Translations under genes and position numbers: made by a program
Notes under the pieces: model-generated
The model's input: the letters and a program-made list of their open reading frames with translations, nothing else
Databases searched by the model: none
What the model was told of the DNA's origin: nothing
In this document: piece by piece, positions 19,742 to 34,232 of the stretch
How positions within the stretch are numbered: position 1 is the first letter of the stretch
Layout: each line of letters opens with the position of its first letter
Virus record (IMG/VR): IMGVR_UViG_3300024999_000219
Span: 1-39,342 of that record
Strand: one strand, 5' to 3'
Source: a virus
Length of the DNA: 39,342 nucleotides

Positions 19742-19888
19742 TTATTTCTCTTCTTCTATAAATCCATTTTCCTCCATCCATTCAGTTTCTACTTCTAACA
19801 CTCTATGAACAATTGAATATGGTATTAATGCTTTCTTACTAATATATTTTGCAACTTCCTCTAAATCAATAACTAATTCTTTTTCCAT
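19742..19888 (-). CDS. Small acidic protein, 48 aa, operon end
   Basis: AAAGGAGGTTATTAATT precedes the ATG at 19888; the frame MEKELVIDLEEVAKYISKKA... ends at TAA 19744-19742. It overlaps the 3' end of the replication-relaxation gene by 23 bases. One or two amphipathic helices, acidic C-terminus. The overlap and ribosome site argue that it belongs to the same operon; function unknown. Confidence 0.6.
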   Translation of the reverse strand: MEKELVIDLEEVAKYISKKALIPYSIVHRVLEVETEWMEENGFIEEEK

Positions 19889-20591
19889 AATTAATAACCT
19901 CCTTTTTTATTTCATCTACAGCAACTATAATAAACTTTAAACTTAACTTAACTTCCTCTCCTATACTTTCATCAATTCCTACAAACTTAATATTATCTCT
20001 CTTCTCAATCTCTAACACTTTTAACTTTTTCTTCTCACTATCACAAACAATTAATATATTAGGGAATCTACTAACTTTATTATACCAAAACTCATTCTTA
20101 TATCTACCATTCCTATAAATATCAACATACTCTTTAATCTTATTAAATTTATTCCTACTATCTACTCTATCACTTTCAATTATCACATATCTATGTTCAT
20201 TAGTAACATAATTCTTAAATCCAATTATACCATCTGCTCTTTGACCACACTTAAAAACATATTCATTATTAATATCAACAAATTTATAATATTCTTTAAA
20301 CTTATACATATACAATAAATAAATATATCCCCAATTTCTATTAATATCATGAATCATAAATTTAGATTTTTTATTTGTAAAATAATAATTACATTCATTA
20401 ATATCTACTCTAATTGAATTAATTTTTCCTTTCTCTTTAAGTACCCTTAATCTTTCTCTACACTTAACTATCCCAAATTTTATATTAGTAAAAAACAAAT
20501 AATAAATTTGTTCTGTAGTTAATACTTCAAACATTTCAATTGCCTCTACTACACACTTATCTCGGTAATAACCTTTTTGTCTTGTGTTCAT
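19866..20591 (-). CDS. Replication-relaxation family protein, 241 aa
   Basis: The N-terminal 60 residues are a winged helix with the usual wording of this family (VLTTEQIYYLFF, then CRERLRVLKEKGKI). A second domain follows with ADGIIGF, YVIIESDR and a conserved Lys in the next helix, which looks like the nuclease-like fold of Replic_Relax (Pfam PF13814), linked to plasmid replication and DNA relaxation. I start at the ATG at 20591; a TTG at about 20621 with GGAG before it is an alternative. It overlaps the end of the FtsK-type gene by 35 bases, so the two act together, probably in plasmid transfer. Confidence 0.65.
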   Translation of the reverse strand: MNTRQKGYYRDKCVVEAIEMFEVLTTEQIYYLFFTNIKFGIVKCRERLRVLKEKGKINSIRVDINECNYYFTNKKSKFMIHDINRNWGYIYLLYMYKFKEYYKFVDINNEYVFKCGQRADGIIGFKNYVTNEHRYVIIESDRVDSRNKFNKIKEYVDIYRNGRYKNEFWYNKVSRFPNILIVCDSEKKKLKVLEIEKRDNIKFVGIDESIGEEVKLSLKFIIVAVDEIKKEVINYGKRISY

Positions 20592-21897
20592 ATTCTTGTA
20601 TTTGAAATTGTTCTCTATCAATAGGATCATCTCCATTGTAGAAATATGATGCTTTATTATGATTACTATCATCTGATAATTTATTAAACATTATTAATCT
20701 CTCTTCTGCTTCTTTTCGTTTTAATAACATTGCCTGTAATTCCATCTGCTTAGTTCCATGTTGAAATATCATTCTACCTTTAATATTAGGCAAATAATAA
20801 GCATCTGTATTTCCTAATATGGTCATACTAGTACCAAAATTAACACATTTAAATGATATAGCACTAGGAAAGTTGCTCTTTATTTCCATAGGAATTAATT
20901 TATCTGATGGTCTTTGCATTGCAATAATTAAATGTACTCCTGTTTTAGCACTTATCATTCCTAAGTCTGCAACAATACTTTGTAATCTTTGTCTTCTATT
21001 TTTCATAATTTTATTGTCTGATTTTCTAGGAGAAGTAAATGCAAATTCATCAACAACTAATACAATATATTCTAATTTATTACTAGGATTCTTTTTATTA
21101 TATTCTATTAAATTAACACAATTATTTTTTACAAGGAAATATCTTCTTCTTTCTACTTCTTGCATTAAATAATCTAATATTATTTCTGCACTATCAAGAT
21201 TATACCCAAATATAACATAATCTTTTAAATGTACAAAATCAGTCATTGCTAAATCTATAACAATTAATTTAATATTATTATTTTGCATTAATCCATCACA
21301 AATACCTGTTAATAAGACACTTTTCCCACTCCTAGTTACTCCTCCGATTATAAGATGTACTATATCAACTAAATCAACAATTATATTTATACCATTAACT
21401 CCTACACCTATAGGAATAGGTATACATTTATCCATATGCTCAATATAATTAAAGTTATATCTATATTTTTCAGGTATAATACCCTTAATAACTTCCATCA
21501 TTAATAATCCTCTTCTATTTTCTATATTAACTTGTGCTGTCATTGCATCAGAGAAATATTTTACTTTATCAATTATTAACTTATAATTTAATCCATATGG
21601 CAATTTAAACATTACTTGATAATGATTATCATTCTTTTTATTTGTAGCAATATGATAAGGATATTTACCTTCGGAATTATAACAATTAGTTTGTATAAAT
21701 ACATTTTCAATTTCTGCTTCTATATTTCTACTTTTTCTAGTTCTAATTAATTTTTTTACTGAAGTTTTTAAATCTTCTTTCTTTTCAGGTTTAAGTGGTT
21801 TATATCCTAACTTCAAATCCCATAAATATTTATTAAAATTATCTTTTAAATCTTTCTTATATTTCTTCCAATTTTCTTTTATTTCTTTTCTGTCCAA
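20557..21897 (-). CDS. FtsK/HerA-type DNA translocase, soluble, 446 aa
   Basis: Walker A GGVTRSGKS at about residues 185-193, Walker B IVLVVDEF at about 278-285, then a sensor segment (TGVHLIIAMQRPSDKLI) and a GNTDAYYLPNIKGR element are the marks of the FtsK/SpoIIIE/TcpA motor family. The first 180 residues are Lys-rich and have no membrane helix, unlike typical coupling proteins; the 138-aa and 224-aa neighbours could supply the anchor. TTG at 21897 has AGGTGG before it; GTG at 21906 is the alternative. The start overlaps the 224-aa gene. Likely pumps DNA during conjugation or mobilisation. Confidence 0.8.
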   Translation of the reverse strand: MDRKEIKENWKKYKKDLKDNFNKYLWDLKLGYKPLKPEKKEDLKTSVKKLIRTRKSRNIEAEIENVFIQTNCYNSEGKYPYHIATNKKNDNHYQVMFKLPYGLNYKLIIDKVKYFSDAMTAQVNIENRRGLLMMEVIKGIIPEKYRYNFNYIEHMDKCIPIPIGVGVNGINIIVDLVDIVHLIIGGVTRSGKSVLLTGICDGLMQNNNIKLIVIDLAMTDFVHLKDYVIFGYNLDSAEIILDYLMQEVERRRYFLVKNNCVNLIEYNKKNPSNKLEYIVLVVDEFAFTSPRKSDNKIMKNRRQRLQSIVADLGMISAKTGVHLIIAMQRPSDKLIPMEIKSNFPSAISFKCVNFGTSMTILGNTDAYYLPNIKGRMIFQHGTKQMELQAMLLKRKEAEERLIMFNKLSDDSNHNKASYFYNGDDPIDREQFQIQEYEHKTKRLLPR

Positions 21898-22553
21898 TTT
21901 AACCACCTACTATTCTTTGGTTTATTTAAATAATTCTTAAATCCCTTTATCTTTTCAATAACACCTTTTCGTATACTTCCATCTCTACTTTTACTTATAT
22001 CTTCCATTACTCCATCTATTATTTTCCCAAAACATTTACCATCTATCTCTGACATTTCTTTACTTCCCATATCACGATATATAATTCTTTCTTCACCTTT
22101 ATCATTCTTAATAGTTACAGTAAAACTTCCAGGTGTTTTATCATCAGTAATCTTAATATTTTCATTATGTTTATCTTCTTTCTTATTGATATTAGAATTA
22201 TTATCTATTTTTTGTTCATTTTTATTAATTATTTCCTCTTTTTTATTGATATTATTGTTAATATTATGTTGTTTTTGTTCATTATATTGCTTATTTTCAT
22301 CGTAAGTTTTATCTTCATTATAATTATATGTTTTATTATTAGTATCTTCTTCTACGTTTACTATAATTGGTAATTTTTTATCTTTAATAATTAAATCACC
22401 ATAAAATTTATTGCCATATTGAGTTTCTTCATGCTTATATATTTTAGCATCTATCACTCCATGTTTAGTAAACAATAAATTATTCATACCAAACATAACG
22501 AACAATGCCATTATTCCTACTATACATTTATTGATAAATATACTCTGTATCAT
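21879..22553 (-). CDS. Membrane-anchored Asn/Lys-rich protein, 224 aa
   Basis: ATG at 22553 after AGAGGAGTGATTAATA. One hydrophobic helix at residues 8-28 (CIVGIMALFVMFGMNNLLF). Residues 33-60 look beta-rich; residues 65-130 are an Asn, Lys and Glu-rich spacer with repeats of NINKKE and NEQK. The C-terminal 90 residues (about 135-224) hold a small fold with KGEERIIYRDMG and a basic end. It looks like a tethered adaptor with a long flexible arm to the DNA motor, with which its gene overlaps by 19 bases. Confidence 0.65.
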   Translation of the reverse strand: MIQSIFINKCIVGIMALFVMFGMNNLLFTKHGVIDAKIYKHEETQYGNKFYGDLIIKDKKLPIIVNVEEDTNNKTYNYNEDKTYDENKQYNEQKQHNINNNINKKEEIINKNEQKIDNNSNINKKEDKHNENIKITDDKTPGSFTVTIKNDKGEERIIYRDMGSKEMSEIDGKCFGKIIDGVMEDISKSRDGSIRKGVIEKIKGFKNYLNKPKNSRWLNWTEKK

Positions 22554-22559
22554 TATTAA

Positions 22560-22976
22560 TCACTCCTCTTTATTTTCTTTGTTTGAGTTTTTATCATACT
22601 TAACTTTAGGATATTGATTAATAAATTTTAATTTATCAGGCATACTATCATTTATTTTATCATCAATATATTTATCTACTTGTTCTTGAGTATATAGTTT
22701 GGCAGTTGGATCAATATATTTTTTAATATAATCTATTTTCTCTTCTACATATTTTTGTTTTCTTTGCTCTTCTTCTATTAAAGGTAATACTTTTTCCATA
22801 ATAACACTTAAACAAGAAAATATAGTTATAATAATTATCATTTTTGCCATATTTCTTTTACTTAGTGCTCTACAAGTCACATATCCAAATGCTCCTATTA
22901 ATGTCTGTATCATTAATTGTGGCAGACATAAGCATGTTATAGCGAATAATAATATTGGAATAATAACTAAATACAT
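22560..22976 (-). CDS. Membrane protein with coiled-coil tail, 138 aa
   Basis: ATG at 22976 after AGAAGGTGAAAAA. Hydrophobic segments at 1-20 and 43-60; residues 65-110 are charged and helical (LIEEEQRKQKYVEEKIDYI), and the end is Lys/Glu-rich. Six bases separate it from the next gene. In context it may be the membrane platform for the soluble FtsK-type ATPase. No named family. Confidence 0.6.
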   Translation of the reverse strand: MYLVIIPILLFAITCLCLPQLMIQTLIGAFGYVTCRALSKRNMAKMIIIITIFSCLSVIMEKVLPLIEEEQRKQKYVEEKIDYIKKYIDPTAKLYTQEQVDKYIDDKINDSMPDKLKFINQYPKVKYDKNSNKENKEE

Positions 22977-24354: not shown

Positions 24355-25200
24355 ATGAAAAATAAAATTGAGCAATACAAAAATTATTTAATTAACCAGG
24401 CAAAATCAAATAATACAATATCATCATATGTGTCAGACTTAAATCACTTCTTTACTTTACATGATGAGATTAGTAGGGATTCTATTATTAAATATAAGGA
24501 AGATATTAGTGGTTTATCTTCTTCATCTATTAATAGGAAGTTATCTGCAATTAAATCGTTTAATGAATTTTTATTAATGTTAGGATTAATTAATAGTATA
24601 AAAGTTATAAAGCGAGATTTCATTAAGATACAAGGCAGAGGTAACCCAACAAATATAACAGAATCACAAGTATCTGAATTTTTAGATAAAGTTAGTAATA
24701 AATATAATTTGCATAGAGATAGAAATATTGCTATTGTTTTTCTTATTGCTCATACAGGAATTAGGAGAGAAGAAATTACAAATTTAAAATTAAGAAATTT
24801 AGATATAGAAAAAGGAGAATTGAAGTTGATTGGTAAAGGTGATAAGGAAAGAATTGTATTGTTAAATGATGTTGCAATAAATGTTATTAAAGATTATTTA
24901 AAAATTAGAGAAAAATATAAATTTGCTAATAGTCAATATATATTTTTATCTGAAAGAAGTGAGAAACTAGATAAAAGTACAATTAATTATATATTTAATA
25001 GTTATGGTGATGATTGTAAGGTTGGAATACACCAGTTAAGACATCATATGGCTACGAGTGCAATAGAACAAGGAGTTTTTACATTACCAGAATTACAGAA
25101 TCAACTCGGTCATAGCAAATTGAATACCGTAGGTATTTATGCTCAAGCAAGAAAAGAAAATATTAAGAAAAAGATTAATAATTTGAGGATTGGGTTGTAG
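24355..25200 (+). CDS. Tyrosine recombinase / integrase, 281 aa
   Basis: ATG at 24355 after AAAAGGAGTAGATAAT. A SAM-like core-binding domain covers residues 1-90. The catalytic residues are all visible: R137 in HTGIRREE, a Lys in GKGDKERIV, H226 and R229 in GIHQLRHH, H253 in LGHSKL, and nucleophile Y262 in VGIYAQ. Length fits XerC/D-like recombinases of mobile elements. Role may be integration, dimer resolution, or partition of a multimeric plasmid. It follows the origin-like spacer, and a hairpin-rich patch downstream (25456-25510) could be its site. Confidence 0.9.
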   Translation: MKNKIEQYKNYLINQAKSNNTISSYVSDLNHFFTLHDEISRDSIIKYKEDISGLSSSSINRKLSAIKSFNEFLLMLGLINSIKVIKRDFIKIQGRGNPTNITESQVSEFLDKVSNKYNLHRDRNIAIVFLIAHTGIRREEITNLKLRNLDIEKGELKLIGKGDKERIVLLNDVAINVIKDYLKIREKYKFANSQYIFLSERSEKLDKSTINYIFNSYGDDCKVGIHQLRHHMATSAIEQGVFTLPELQNQLGHSKLNTVGIYAQARKENIKKKINNLRIGL

Positions 25201-27135: not shown

Positions 27136-27846
27136 ATGATAATTAATGATTTTAACTATAAAGTAATATTATTAAAATATATAAATACAAAAATTAATAC
27201 AAATTTATTTGTTAAATTATTTGCCACAGATAAACAATATAAATATTATTTAAAAACAAAAAGATTAAATACTGGTGATAGAGATAATATTATTAAAAGA
27301 GCAAATAAGTTTTGTAAATTAGAAGGATTAGGTAAAGGTAAATATATAATTTATGAAATATTAGAAGAATCAAAATATAAAAAATATTATTATTTACACC
27401 CTCTATATACAATTTATCATGGTATGAAACAAAGATGTTATAATCCAAACTTTGATAATTATTATAATTATGGTGGTAGAGGAATTACTATCTGTAATGA
27501 ATGGTTAGATAAAGAAAACGGATTATTAAATTTTATAAAATGGTCTGAAAATAATGGTTACATACCAAATCAAGATTTATCAATTGATAGAATAGATAAT
27601 GACAAAGGGTATTCTCCTGATAATTGCAGATGGACAACTAGAGATATTCAAGCATTAAATAGGAGAAATGTTAAAAGAAATCTTATAGGGATGATTGATA
27701 TAAATGAATATAATAATTTATTGCTATGCAATTATCATTATAAAGGTAAATCTTATCCATTGGGTACATTTTTAAATTTGGAAGATGCAGAAATATGTAA
27801 AGATAATTTATTAAATATATTAGAAAAAATATCATTTGAAGAATAA
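27136..27846 (+). CDS. HNH homing endonuclease, AP2-type, 236 aa
   Basis: ATG at 27136 after AAGGAGAGAAAATAT. The centre has the family wording of phage HNH proteins with AP2 DNA-binding arms: YTIYHGMKQRCYNP, YYNYGGRGITICNEW, then LSIDRIDNDKGYSPDNCRW. The N-terminal 80 residues and C-terminal GKSYPLGTFLNLEDAE resemble DNA-binding arms (AP2-like at the end). Stand-alone genes of this sort act as homing or intron-independent mobile endonucleases. No intron is seen around it. It lies 26 bases upstream of the radical SAM gene. Confidence 0.8.
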   Translation: MIINDFNYKVILLKYINTKINTNLFVKLFATDKQYKYYLKTKRLNTGDRDNIIKRANKFCKLEGLGKGKYIIYEILEESKYKKYYYLHPLYTIYHGMKQRCYNPNFDNYYNYGGRGITICNEWLDKENGLLNFIKWSENNGYIPNQDLSIDRIDNDKGYSPDNCRWTTRDIQALNRRNVKRNLIGMIDINEYNNLLLCNYHYKGKSYPLGTFLNLEDAEICKDNLLNILEKISFEE

Positions 27847-28658: not shown

Positions 28659-31496
28659 ATGAAAAAAGCATTAAATCAACACAATAAATTAGTAGATATT
28701 ATTGAATCTACTAAAGATGATACATACATATGTCCAGTTTGTAAAGAAATATTAACTAGAAATTTTGGTGTGAGTAGGCAATTTTACAGTCATCCTAGTG
28801 GCAGGGGTGACGAGTGTGAATTGAAGTTAAAATTAATGGTTAAAGATGGAGAGAAGGAATTTGGTGAGAAAGAAATTGATATTTTGAGGGATGAATATTA
28901 TGAGAAAGTGTTTGATGATGTTAATATTGAATTGTCTGATTATATGTCTGAAGAAGGATATTATTTAACGCAAGAACAGAAAGATATTATATTTGCAGAA
29001 GAGGATAGAATAAAGATAGCTGCATTGGCTGGAGCCTCTAAATCCCATACTTTATATTATTATGCAAAAGAACGTCCATTTAAGAAAATACTCTATGTTG
29101 TATATAACCGTTCGATGAAAGATACCGCCGATTTAATGTATAAAAAATTACCTTTTGTAACGGTAAGAACGCAACACTCACTCGCTTTTAGCTATGTGGG
29201 AAAATTTTACAAAAACAAATTAACATTTAATTATGGTATTGTAGACATAATTAAAGATTTAAATCTTAATTGGAATAAAGATATGGAATTGGCATCTAAA
29301 ATAGATAAAATGATGAAAGAATATATGTTATCTGATGCAATGGAATTTGATGATGTAAAATTATTTTTAGATAATAATGGTAATACAACAAATGAAAGAG
29401 AAGAAATTATAAGACAGAGTAAAAGATTGTGGGAATTTAAAAAAGAATATAAAAATAATATTAAGATTGAACACGATTTCTACCTAAAACTCTTTCATCT
29501 TTCAAAGACAAACCTCGAAAATAAATATGATATAATTATGGTTGATGAATGTTTACCTAAATCACAATTAGTTAAAACAGATCAAGGAAGCATATCAATT
29601 AAGAAATTATATGAATGGTATATTCAAGGTAATCCACTACCTAAAGCATTAAGTTATAATATTAATACTGATACTTTTGAATATAAAAATATTATAGAAG
29701 CAAAGAAATCTGAAAATAGACAATTATTAGAAATAACTACAGAAGGGTTAAATAAATTACAATGCACAGAGAATCATAGGATATTAACGCAAAGAGGATA
29801 TGTAAAAGCAGAAGATTTAATTATTGGCAAAGATTCACTAATATTAGATAGTGTAGAAAATCAAAAAACTAAATTTAAACCTAATGCAAATCAAATTCAA
29901 ATTATATTAGGTTCATTTTTAGGTGATGGACATTTACAAATAATGAGTAAATTTAATACCTATAGATTAAATTTTACACAAGGAGAAAAGCAGTTTGAAT
30001 ATTTTAAATCAAAGATTAGTGCATTTGATTTAGATTATCGTCTTATTGAAAGTGGATATACACATGAACTTTCAATTTATTCTTCTAATCCAACAAAAGT
30101 ATTTTTATTAGAAAAAGATATATGGGAATTAATGAATGATATAAATGAAATGGGGTTAGCAATATGGTATCAAGATGATGGAAGTTATAATAATGGTAGA
30201 TATTGCACAATTAATTCTAATCAATTAACTTATGAACAAACTGAATATATTCGTAATATATTATTAAACAAATATGATATTGAATTTGAAACCAAAATGT
30301 CAAAAGGTAAATATTATTTATTAAGAGCAAATAAAGAAAATAGCGATAAATTTATTAAATTAATACACAAATATATGCATCCAAGTATGCAATATAAATC
30401 ATACTTGGATATTTCTAATAATACAAATACATATAATAATAAATATTTAAATCATGGTGGAAATTACATAAAATCTATTAATAAAATACATAGTGAAGAT
30501 GTTTATGATATTGAAGTTAAAGACAATCATAATTTTGTAACCACAAGGTCAGTATCAAAACATAAAATAAATAAATGTGGTGCAAGTCCTTCAGGTATAG
30601 TTGTTCATAATTGCCAAGATTTATCAAACCTAACATTAGATATATTAAAATCATCAAATGTTAAAGGTATAGTTTTAGTAGGTGATAAATTTCAAAGTAT
30701 TTATAGCTGGCGTAATTCCATCAATATTATGCCTTTGTTTGAAGGAAAAGAATATAAACTTACTACTTCATTTAGAGTAAGTCAGAATATTGCCAATATA
30801 GCAAATTTACTTATATCAGATTTTATTGATGAAAATATTAATATGAAAGGATTTAATACTAAACAAACTATTGTAGATAAGATTGATAAATCAAAACCAT
30901 ATGTATGTTTATGTAGAACTAATGCTTATATTTTTGCTGAAATCGCAGATGCATTAAGTCAAGATAAGAACAAAAAATTCTTCTTCGAGGGAGGTTATCA
31001 GGGTTACAATTTTTCCAATTTAAGGGATTGTTATTTCTACAGTATAGGACATGCAACAAAGAATAAAATATTTTCTAAATTTAAAGATTATATTCATATG
31101 AGAGAATATGCAGAAGATACAAATGATATTGAATTACTATCTTTGATTAGAATGGTAGACAAATATGGGTCAAAAATAGTTGATATAGTAGACGGAATTA
31201 AACTTAATGTAGTTACAGACAAAAATAAGGCAAATATTATATTCTCTACCTGCCATAGAGCGAAGGGTGCTACATATCACCTTCCTGTTTATATTTCAGA
31301 TGATATTCTTGATCTTTCTAATATTTTTAGAAAGAAATATATAGATAAAGATAGTAAATTTAATATTAAAGATTACGAAGAAGAGATAAACATAATTTAT
31401 GTGGCAATTTCAAGACCATATTCAACTATTGAGTTAAGCGATAAAATTAAAGATTATTTAATAATGAGATATAAATATTTTAAAGATAAAGAATAA
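28659..31496 (+). CDS. UvrD/Rep-family helicase with N-terminal zinc site and intein, 945 aa
   Basis: Host parts: residues 25-53 carry CPVC...H...DEC, a zinc site; LTQEQKDI (103-110) is the Q motif; AALAGASKSHT (121-131) the P-loop; IMVDE-[intein]-CQDL motif II; GDKFQSIYSWR motif III; TTSFRVSQNI motif IV; STCHRAKGATY motif V; YVAISRP motif VI. This is superfamily 1A, close to UvrD/Fbh1-like helicases. The mature protein is about 591 aa. ATG at 28659 has AAAAAGGAG about 14 bases upstream, unusually far. Likely unwinds DNA in replication or repair of the element. Walker A lacks the usual Gly before Lys (GAS-KS). Confidence 0.85.
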   Translation: MKKALNQHNKLVDIIESTKDDTYICPVCKEILTRNFGVSRQFYSHPSGRGDECELKLKLMVKDGEKEFGEKEIDILRDEYYEKVFDDVNIELSDYMSEEGYYLTQEQKDIIFAEEDRIKIAALAGASKSHTLYYYAKERPFKKILYVVYNRSMKDTADLMYKKLPFVTVRTQHSLAFSYVGKFYKNKLTFNYGIVDIIKDLNLNWNKDMELASKIDKMMKEYMLSDAMEFDDVKLFLDNNGNTTNEREEIIRQSKRLWEFKKEYKNNIKIEHDFYLKLFHLSKTNLENKYDIIMVDECLPKSQLVKTDQGSISIKKLYEWYIQGNPLPKALSYNINTDTFEYKNIIEAKKSENRQLLEITTEGLNKLQCTENHRILTQRGYVKAEDLIIGKDSLILDSVENQKTKFKPNANQIQIILGSFLGDGHLQIMSKFNTYRLNFTQGEKQFEYFKSKISAFDLDYRLIESGYTHELSIYSSNPTKVFLLEKDIWELMNDINEMGLAIWYQDDGSYNNGRYCTINSNQLTYEQTEYIRNILLNKYDIEFETKMSKGKYYLLRANKENSDKFIKLIHKYMHPSMQYKSYLDISNNTNTYNNKYLNHGGNYIKSINKIHSEDVYDIEVKDNHNFVTTRSVSKHKINKCGASPSGIVVHNCQDLSNLTLDILKSSNVKGIVLVGDKFQSIYSWRNSINIMPLFEGKEYKLTTSFRVSQNIANIANLLISDFIDENINMKGFNTKQTIVDKIDKSKPYVCLCRTNAYIFAEIADALSQDKNKKFFFEGGYQGYNFSNLRDCYFYSIGHATKNKIFSKFKDYIHMREYAEDTNDIELLSLIRMVDKYGSKIVDIVDGIKLNVVTDKNKANIIFSTCHRAKGATYHLPVYISDDILDLSNIFRKKYIDKDSKFNIKDYEEEINIIYVAISRPYSTIELSDKIKDYLIMRYKYFKDKE
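29550..30611 (+). mobile_element. Intein with LAGLIDADG endonuclease in the helicase, 354 aa
   Basis: It begins at C298 (CLPKSQLVK) and ends at N651 (GIVVHN), followed by C652 as +1 residue. Block B is CTENHRIL, with the TxxH pattern. The two endonuclease motifs are LGSFLGDGHL and LAIWYQDDGSY. Block F is VYDIEVKDNHNFVT. The insertion point lies inside helicase motif II, between DE and CQD, the most conserved site. About 17 residues separate block F from block G (usually adjacent). Confidence 0.9.
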
Positions 31497-31523: not shown

Positions 31524-34232
31524 ATGCTACAATTAAATAAAATCTACAACACAGACTGTAAAGAAGGTATGAAACTACTACCAGATAATTCTATATCATC
31601 AATCGTCACAGACCCACCTTACGGATTATCCAAAGAACCAAATATAGTTGAAGTATTAACTAATTGGTTAAATAATGAAGAATACATACATAATTCAAAA
31701 GGATTTATGGGAAAAGATTGGGATTCATTTGTTCCTAATCCTTCTATATGGAAAGAAGCATATAGAGTATTAAAACCAGGAGGATATTTATTATGTTTTG
31801 CTGGAACACGTACATATGATTTAATGTGTATAAGTTTAAGATTAGCAGGATTTGAAATTAGAGATCAAATTGACTGGATTTATGGTTGTTTATCAGAAGA
31901 TACAGAAATATTAACATTAGAAGGTTGGAAAAATTATAATAATATAAATATTAATGATGAAATATTTTCAATGAATTTAAGTAATAATAAAATAATAAAA
32001 AAAAATGTTAATTATATTTATAAATATAATTATGATGGAAATATGGTTAATCTTATAAATGATAATACAGATCAACTTTTAACTTTAAATCATAAAGTTA
32101 TTTGTAAAGAAGGTAGAAGAATATGTAAAAATCATGAAAGAAAAGTTGTTTGGGATAATAATTTAAAATATAAAGATGCAAAATTTATAGATAGTGAATA
32201 TTATGTTTTACCATTGGCAGGTTATTATGAAGGTACATATTCTATAGGAAAAGATTTCTCTGAATTAATAGGATGGATTTTATCTGAAGGTCATTTTCAT
32301 AAAGATACAAATGCTATTAGTATTTATCAATCAAGTGTAAATATAGACAAAGTTAGAAGAATAAAATATATTTTAGGAAGATTAAAAATAAAGTATTCTC
32401 ATTATCAAAGGGAAAGAGAATATAAAGAACGTAAATATACAGAACATCAATTTTATTTTTCAGGTAATATAGTAGATAAAATTAAAGAAATTATACCTAA
32501 CAAAAAACCAACTAATAATTTATGGAATTTACCATTAAGAGAAAAAGAAAGATTATTTAATGGTTTGTGTTTAGGTGATGGTACAAAAGGAAATAGAAAT
32601 AATTTTCAAGCATTTTATCAAAAAGATATACAATTTTTAGAATGGTTTCAAGTATTATTACATCTAATGGGTAAACAAGGGAGAATTAATATAAATAAAT
32701 ATTCTTGTTCTATAAATCATAGTGATTCAACAGAAATACAAATGAAGCATTATCCTAATAGATTAGTTAAGTATGAAGGGATAGTGTGGTGTATAGAAAC
32801 TGAAATTGGTAATTTTATAGCAAGGAGAAATGGTAAAATATTTATTACTGGAAATTCTGGTTTTCCAAAGTCAATGGATATAAGTAAACAAATTGATAAA
32901 AAATTTGGAGCAGAAAGAGAAATTGTTGGAGAAGGAAAATATTTTAATCGTCAACCAAATGGATTAGCATCATGTAATGTTACAGGATTTTCTTCTGAAA
33001 TAGGTAAAAGACATGGTAGTAATGGTTATATTACAGAACCTTCCACAGACGAAGCAAAACAATTTAACGGATATGGTACTGCCCTTAAACCAGCACATGA
33101 ACCAATTATTGTAGCAAGAAAACCTTTAAGTGAGAAAACTATAGTAGATAATATTCTAAAATGGAACACTGGTGGAATTAATATTGATGATTGTAGGATT
33201 GAATTAAATGGAGATTATAAATCAAAACCAAATGGTAGACCTTCACTAACTAGATTAGGAGATAATTATAATCCTGACAATGCAAATAAACCTGACAATC
33301 AAGGTAGATTTCCTGCAAATATAATTATGGATGAATATGCAGGTAAAATATTAGATTTACAAAGTGGTATTACTAAAAGTGGAAAAGTAAAAGAAAATAA
33401 AGATGCTTACAAAGGAGAATCTAATACAGGATTTTTAAGAGGTAAATCAACATTACAAAATCAACATGGTGACACAGGTGGAGCAAGTAGGTATTTTAAA
33501 AATATATTATATTGTGAGGATGATTACATATGTGGGAATATTATAGAAAATCTGAAGGTCGCTGGTATATTAAATGGCGTAATCCAGGAGATAGAACAAT
33601 TTATTCAAAACGTAGAGCAAGATATACATGGGAACAATATTATGGAGAAATTCCTGTTGGATTTGAAGTACATCATATTAATGGTGACAAATCTGACGAT
33701 AGAATTGAAAATTTGGAATTATTATCAAAATATAAACATAAAAAGTTACATGGAGATGCAAGAAAAGATCATAAAATTATTGATGGAATTGAATATAGAA
33801 AATGTCAAAACTGTGGAGAATATAAAAATATTAATGAATTTTATAAAAGAAATGAATGTTATCAAGGATATTGTAAAAAGTGTTCAAGAGAAAAATTACG
33901 AGAGTGGAGATATATTAACAAAGAATATAATAATAAATACCAGAGAGAATATCAAAGAGAAAAAAGAAAATTATATTAATTTTATGTATTGTGCTAAAGC
34001 AAGTAAAAAAGAACGTGGTGAAGGAAATAATCATCCATGCGTCAAACCATTATCATTAATTAAATATTTAGTTACATTAGTTACTCCTCCTAATGGTATA
34101 TGCTTAGATCCATTTGAAGGTTCAGGTACGACATTTATTGCTTGCCAAGAATTAGGTTTTGATCATATAGGATTTGAGATGAATAAGGAATATTGTGATA
34201 TTGCAGAGAAAAGATTAAGTAATAAATTATAA
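31524..34232 (+). CDS. Beta-class DNA methyltransferase, twice interrupted, 902 aa frame
   Basis: Motif IV TDPPYGLS is at residues 29-36 and motif I DPFEGSGTTF near the C-terminus, so motif IV comes before motif I: the beta-class order of N6-adenine or N4-cytosine methyltransferases. ATG at 31524 has AAAAAGGAG about 12 bases upstream. The frame includes an intein (C122-N444) and a 159-codon insertion (about residues 663-821) that carries an out-of-frame HNH gene. Removing both leaves about 420 aa, normal for this class. No restriction endonuclease is seen, so it is probably an orphan enzyme protecting element DNA. Confidence 0.85.
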   Translation: MLQLNKIYNTDCKEGMKLLPDNSISSIVTDPPYGLSKEPNIVEVLTNWLNNEEYIHNSKGFMGKDWDSFVPNPSIWKEAYRVLKPGGYLLCFAGTRTYDLMCISLRLAGFEIRDQIDWIYGCLSEDTEILTLEGWKNYNNININDEIFSMNLSNNKIIKKNVNYIYKYNYDGNMVNLINDNTDQLLTLNHKVICKEGRRICKNHERKVVWDNNLKYKDAKFIDSEYYVLPLAGYYEGTYSIGKDFSELIGWILSEGHFHKDTNAISIYQSSVNIDKVRRIKYILGRLKIKYSHYQREREYKERKYTEHQFYFSGNIVDKIKEIIPNKKPTNNLWNLPLREKERLFNGLCLGDGTKGNRNNFQAFYQKDIQFLEWFQVLLHLMGKQGRININKYSCSINHSDSTEIQMKHYPNRLVKYEGIVWCIETEIGNFIARRNGKIFITGNSGFPKSMDISKQIDKKFGAEREIVGEGKYFNRQPNGLASCNVTGFSSEIGKRHGSNGYITEPSTDEAKQFNGYGTALKPAHEPIIVARKPLSEKTIVDNILKWNTGGINIDDCRIELNGDYKSKPNGRPSLTRLGDNYNPDNANKPDNQGRFPANIIMDEYAGKILDLQSGITKSGKVKENKDAYKGESNTGFLRGKSTLQNQHGDTGGASRYFKNILYCEDDYICGNIIENLKVAGILNGVIQEIEQFIQNVEQDIHGNNIMEKFLLDLKYIILMVTNLTIELKIWNYYQNINIKSYMEMQEKIIKLLMELNIENVKTVENIKILMNFIKEMNVIKDIVKSVQEKNYESGDILTKNIIINTRENIKEKKENYINFMYCAKASKKERGEGNNHPCVKPLSLIKYLVTLVTPPNGICLDPFEGSGTTFIACQELGFDHIGFEMNKEYCDIAEKRLSNKL
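31887..32855 (+). mobile_element. Intein in the methyltransferase, 323 aa
   Basis: C122 (GCLSEDTEILTLEGW) to N444 (KIFITGN), with S445 as +1 residue. TLNHKV gives block B His. Endonuclease motifs: LIGWILSEGHF and FNGLCLGDGTK. Block F-like region: VWCIETEIGNFIAR. Exteins join as WIYG-SGFPKS, the usual methyltransferase wording, which fixes the boundaries. Confidence 0.9.
33510..33986 (+). mobile_element. 477-bp HNH insertion in the methyltransferase
   Basis: TATTGTG occurs at both ends (33510-33516, 33987-33993). Without the insert the methyltransferase reads ASRYFKNI-L-YCAKASKKE. The insert is a multiple of three and the host frame has no stop through all 159 codons. Only about 27 bases lie outside the HNH gene, so it is not a group I or II intron. 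Confidence 0.8.
33530..33979 (+). CDS. HNH homing endonuclease nested out of frame, 149 aa
   Basis: ATG at 33530 with GAGG 10 bases upstream, read two bases off the host frame. Residues 25-75 hold RRARYTWEQYYG, then VHHINGDKSDDRIENLEL and KHKKLHG, the HNH motif. The C-terminal part has CQNCGEYKNINEF and CYQGYCKKCSREKLREW, a two-CxxC zinc domain typical of phage HNH enzymes. The whole gene is embedded in the methyltransferase. It would cut a vacant methyltransferase allele at the YC codons and move by repair. Confidence 0.85.
   Translation: MWEYYRKSEGRWYIKWRNPGDRTIYSKRRARYTWEQYYGEIPVGFEVHHINGDKSDDRIENLELLSKYKHKKLHGDARKDHKIIDGIEYRKCQNCGEYKNINEFYKRNECYQGYCKKCSREKLREWRYINKEYNNKYQREYQREKRKLY

Follow-up and report, generated by a model that had tools for sequence, protein, structure and literature searches.

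An HNH endonuclease gene nested out of frame within an open phage DNA methyltransferase gene

The analyzed stretch of viral DNA, positions 1 to 39,342 of IMG/VR record IMGVR_UViG_3300024999_000219 (39,342 nt; hereafter, the window), contains a complete HNH endonuclease gene that lies within a DNA methyltransferase gene but in another reading frame; the methyltransferase frame is open across it (Table 1). An open host frame at this place is improbable by chance. The nested gene is very probably a mobile HNH gene that is read from an internal start and tolerated by the methyltransferase as an unspliced in-frame loop.

Table 1. Features of the methyltransferase gene and of the HNH gene nested in it (window coordinates)
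Feature	Position	Strand	Remarks
N6/N4 DNA methyltransferase frame	31524..34232	+	902 codons, open across the insert; ORF list, Pfam N6_N4_Mtase
Methyltransferase motif TDPPYGL	31608-31628	+	
Methyltransferase motif DPFEGSGTT	34107-34133	+	
Upstream host-loop edge, SRYFKNILYCEDDY	33486..33527	+	Gapless alignment to native SRFFKQCNYDDSDY; contains the first TATTGTG
GAGG, possible Shine-Dalgarno sequence	33516..33519	+	10 nt before ATG 33530; putative role in ribosome binding
Inserted DNA, best estimate	33528..33974	+	447 nt = 149 host codons; alignment to L081-L085
HNH endonuclease gene, 149 aa	33530..33979	+	Host frame is its +1 frame; Pfam HNH_3, E 8e-16
HNH core, HHINGDKSDDRIENL	33671-33715	+	
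CxxC pairs of the HNH protein	at 33803 and 33872	+	
Downstream host edge, INFMYCAKASK	33975..34007	+	Identical or near-identical in uninterrupted homologues; contains the second TATTGTG

A preliminary description made from the letters alone had proposed a full 149-residue HNH gene in a frame other than that of the methyltransferase, with a GAGG site upstream, and the profile match and ORF coordinates agree with it. The AlphaFold model of the HNH protein was confident (pLDDT 83), and its best PDB match was I-HmuI (probability 0.99, but E 0.19). Since a TGA occupies the HNH frame at 33521-33523, the start of the gene must fall inside the host gene, with no in-frame start upstream; its stop codon, TAA at 33977-33979, is supplied by native host sequence. 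The whole span of the HNH gene is within the methyltransferase frame, and it is not a freestanding intergenic homing endonuclease gene.

The limits of the insert were fixed by alignment to five homologues without the interruption (L081-L085), which come from different viral contigs, are 59%–73% identical, and read SRFFKQCNYDD(S/N)DYE..NF(M/K)YCAKA(S/N)KKE at the site. The window aligns to them up to the upstream edge and resumes from INFMYCAKASK. Only the 3' edge is sharp, while the 5' edge is uncertain to approximately 30 nt, back to about 33498, and the 30-nt linker found there is identical to native sequence at 16 of 30 positions (P about 0.025). The insert had initially been described as a 477-bp block bounded by TATTGTG copies at 33510 and 33987, and in this respect the description has to be corrected, the homologues placing the insert at about 33528-33974. 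The 12 nt preceding the second TATTGTG are native in the uninterrupted homologues (ATTAATTTTATG in L085), so the insert is essentially the HNH coding sequence alone, and the first TATTGTG sits in a stretch aligning to native loop sequence. The presence of the second copy and the preceding 12 nt in the empty alleles ruled out TATTGTG as a target duplication. The 159 residues that the host frame reads across the 477-bp block are missing in all five homologues; their presence there would have refuted the preliminary description, which thus withstands this check. More distant relatives have no loop at all (SRFFYCAK in L089), so the insertion site is a length-variable loop before YCAKASK. The split methylase of GreaseLightnin (L096) was set aside as another kind of disruption at a different site.

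The absence of stop codons in the host frame was evaluated given the HNH codons. With the HNH protein re-encoded using the codon usage of the window, about 6 host-frame stops were expected in the insert versus 0 observed (P 0.0002); zero stops in the host phase occurred in 0.02% of the re-encoding trials. When only the HNH gene's own synonymous codons were permuted, the probability of an open host frame was 0.02, which is modest on its own. None of the 3027 stretches of 149 codons in other genes of the window was open in that phase, and the longest open run was 46 codons. The other phase of the HNH gene contained 28 stops, matching expectation. The earlier claims that the host frame is open throughout and that this is unlikely to be accidental are thus borne out. 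In this AT-rich window, the expected number of stops is about 6 in the +1 phase versus about 28 in the +2 phase, and freestanding HNH genes have 0.048 stops per codon in the +1 phase versus 0.083 in the +2 phase. The +1 phase may be easier for selection to keep open because it contains fewer stops than the +2 phase.

The same insert layout, with an open host frame, was found in a related methyltransferase of a second lineage (L001-L003; L001 and L002 are the same over the compared stretch), which has no intein. Between the window and L001, dN/dS was 0.14 and 0.11 for the two methyltransferase flanks (Fisher P 0.0008 and 0.0004) and 0.19 for the HNH frame (P 0.0008), while the host frame of the insert had 0 synonymous and 18 nonsynonymous changes. 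These counts are small; two lineages are known at this insertion site, with 18 differences between them. Both methyltransferase flanks and the HNH frame are under purifying selection, while the host-frame peptide of the insert is unconserved. Such a pattern would be expected of an enzyme whose two parts are both required, separated by an insert for which being readable is enough. Stop avoidance among the 18 substitutions was uninformative alone (P 0.47), and another pair of nested loci, L180 and L191, differed by 6 changes leaning the opposite way (4 synonymous and 2 nonsynonymous in the host frame), too few to use. The insert is present in two lineages and absent from five relatives, a distribution that may reflect homing, but the flank identity of 93%–98% fits joint inheritance as well as recent movement. 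A scan of genome contigs with the HNH protein revealed 10 distant relatives and no additional copy at this site.

It is improbable that the insert broke the methyltransferase and that the open host frame is a chance leftover in a dying gene. Orphan methyltransferases of phages are often dispensable, as is generally known and also argued in PMC11855218, and the known lineages with this insertion site number two, but purifying selection acts on both flanks between the two carriers, codon choice would rarely leave this phase open, and the open phase recurs without stops in about 30 other loci.

It is highly improbable that the HNH gene is carried by a self-splicing intron, either very small or degenerate, that removes the segment from the RNA. 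Group I introns of phages typically carry HNH endonucleases such as I-HmuI; however, no Rfam intron family matched the window insert even at a permissive threshold of up to E 1, and the insert is almost all coding sequence. A search of the host-frame translation of window positions 33516-33974 for splicing domains found no Pfam family. The view that the insert is neither an intron nor an intein is borne out by these searches. Ribosomes could also bypass the segment between two TAT-TGT codon pairs, leaving the insert untranslated in the host frame, as in T4 gene 60. The host frame does contain TAT TGT at 33510 and 33987, and their joining would give SRYFKNILYCAKASK, which resembles SRFFYCAKT of the loop-less L089. 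The second TATTGTG, however, is native sequence, and the 477-nt gap far exceeds the known gap of about 50 nt in programmed bypassing, making this explanation extremely improbable. An intron, an intein, and ribosome bypass are all disfavored because none of them requires an open host frame across the segment, yet host-phase stops are depleted there.

A profile search of all fetched loci identified 127 distinct HNH ORFs, 34 of which, including the window copy, were nested in a longer same-strand frame; the phase was +1 in 33 of them and +2 in the remaining one. The nested layout, which the preliminary description had proposed to look for elsewhere, was found in the second lineage described above and in about 30 further loci. 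Methyltransferases were the hosts, at several sites, in L005, L136, L137, L039, L139, L151, L180, L190, and L191. The majority of the nested genes occupied inteins, among them those of terminase large subunits (L004, L008, and most of L117-L134) and of a terminase-like gene (L006 and L140). The nested loci contained 0 host-frame stops versus about 126 expected, a zero that is partly by construction since these loci were chosen for being open. In 60 freestanding relatives, 564 stops were found in that phase versus 469 expected. Independent support comes from how large the expected number of stops is, from the other phase showing no depletion, and from a host gene that can be recognized on both sides.

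Several of these loci have features of their own. In L127, two inteins within one terminase large subunit frame of 1043 codons each harbor one HNH gene, out of frame in the +1 phase (L127:1305-1829 and L127:2814-3302). Two nested HNH genes occupy one methyltransferase in L190, one of them in the +2 phase within an intein whose flanking motifs are the same as those of the intein in the window methyltransferase. The L117 contig has an out-of-frame HNH gene in an intein of a non-terminase gene (L117:7762-8274) and another in a terminase intein. Among named phages, an out-of-frame HNH gene that lacks annotation is present, in the +1 phase, in both the annotated terL of Tetrasphaera phage TJE1 (L211, NC_019930.1) and the annotated DNA methylase of Cylindrospermopsis phage Cr-LKS3 (L209, OM373202.1). 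An HNH ORF within a 220-codon open +1 frame with no recognizable host (L011:2595-3059) may be due to chance and was left aside.

Considered jointly, these loci make it reasonably likely that out-of-frame residence is a general lifestyle for homing endonucleases of phages, in addition to residence in introns, in in-frame inteins, or between genes, and that it has arisen more than once. The hosts would be loops of methyltransferases, and inteins that have an out-of-frame HNH gene in place of the usual in-frame endonuclease domain. Nearly all such genes would use one phase because stops are about twofold more frequent in the other, and the host frame would be kept open by selection while the encoded peptide is unconserved.

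An out-of-frame HNH gene in a DNA methylase of a mycobacteriophage, with no host-frame stop and no intron or intein, has been reported as the ShiLan domain and interpreted as a tolerated loop (ShiLan gp65; Arsenault, Gosselin, and Gogarten 2025, PMC11855218); it was first seen in PMC9957025. Its authors found no ribosome-binding site for the ShiLan HNH gene and suggested leaderless initiation, and they cite a preprint on non-canonical intein architecture (10.1101/2025.01.02.630785). The window element resembles ShiLan in the methyltransferase family, the open host frame, the complete out-of-frame HNH gene, and the absence of an intron or intein. Both HNH genes have the host frame as their +1 frame (the ShiLan phase was measured here), and a LAGLIDADG intein may occupy the same gene. 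However, the insertion sites differ: the window element is located before YCAKASK, at reference residue 344/348, while ShiLan is at KPAHEPIIVARKP (the KPAxEPI site), at 205/195. ShiLan has an 11-residue similarity across its insert. The two HNH proteins share 32% identity over 77 residues and differ in length (149 versus 195 aa), and ShiLan has two flanking zinc fingers. In a quick tree with weak deep support, the window HNH protein fell outside the eight-member ShiLan clade. The window gene starts with an ATG preceded by GAGG, in contrast to the missing ribosome-binding site reported for ShiLan, and belongs to an AT-rich phage rather than a mycobacteriophage. Given the differences in site, HNH clade, and length, the window element is of the same kind as ShiLan but is not its orthologue.

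Pacc40 gp60 (PMC11855218) likewise has an out-of-frame endonuclease ORF in a methylase with an open host frame but, according to the description in that paper, a divergent helicase-methylase host and an AP2/HNH-like product. With HNH endonucleases of group I introns (I-HmuI type) the window element shares the HNH fold, I-HmuI being the best structural match, but it lacks a ribozyme and is inserted straight into a coding sequence whose frame remains open. Like inteins with an in-frame homing endonuclease, it is a mobile endonuclease gene within an open host gene, but it contains no splicing domain and the endonuclease is out of frame.

The following scenario can be proposed for the window element. 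A mobile gene for an HNH homing-type endonuclease would have moved, with little more than its coding sequence, into a methyltransferase loop of variable length, in the phase that allows its codons to be read in the host frame without stops. Those ribosomes that translate the methyltransferase would read through it, producing an enzyme enlarged by about 149 unconserved residues ahead of YCAKASK, while other ribosomes would initiate internally at ATG 33530 and produce the endonuclease. The latter would be expected to cut insert-free methyltransferase alleles, and repair would copy the insert into them, with neither RNA nor protein splicing taking part. The enzyme bearing the loop is presumed to be active; the AlphaFold model of the L001 methyltransferase with the insert, built from a 9-row alignment, was too poor to place the loop (pLDDT 44). 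The initial idea of a single stretch that serves as an endonuclease gene and, read in the host frame, as a tolerated insert is supported by the depletion of host-phase stops, the insert-free homologues, and the recurrence in other loci.

The same methyltransferase contains a LAGLIDADG intein-like insert, in frame, at 31887-32855 (IYG/CLSEDTEIL ... FITGN/SGFPKS, slashes marking its edges), which is missing in L001 and L081-L085. The adjoining UvrD-type helicase gene (28659-31496) contains a second intein (Intein_splicing and LAGLIDADG_2, 29550-30611); two adjacent genes of the window are thus intein-bearing. The ORF at 27136-27846 resembles a freestanding HNH/AP2-type endonuclease (KQRCYN, GGRGITICNEW, SIDRIDNDKGYSPDNCRW), with no Pfam match at E 0.01. 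On the minus strand (19866-22976), a gene for an FtsK/SpoIIIE-type ATPase (20557-21906) is located next to a weak Replic_Relax match (19866-20672), and an integrase is encoded at 24355-25200. Such genes are usually part of conjugative or integrative elements and are present here in a virus record.

Out-of-frame hidden HNH genes were thus already published in 2025 as the ShiLan domain, and the window element represents a new insertion site. Testing for stop depletion at the level of codons is apparently new, as the word "synonymous" is absent from PMC11855218. The two carriers provide a clean dual-frame signature, with a conserved HNH protein, a host-frame peptide that is free to vary but stopless, and an enzyme conserved on both sides. 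Annotation can miss such nested genes: the named records that were inspected list the host gene but have no entry for the HNH gene inside it. The finding turns a recent mycobacteriophage oddity into a testable general rule, according to which selfish endonuclease genes may hide unspliced in coding DNA if their codons avoid stops in the host frame.
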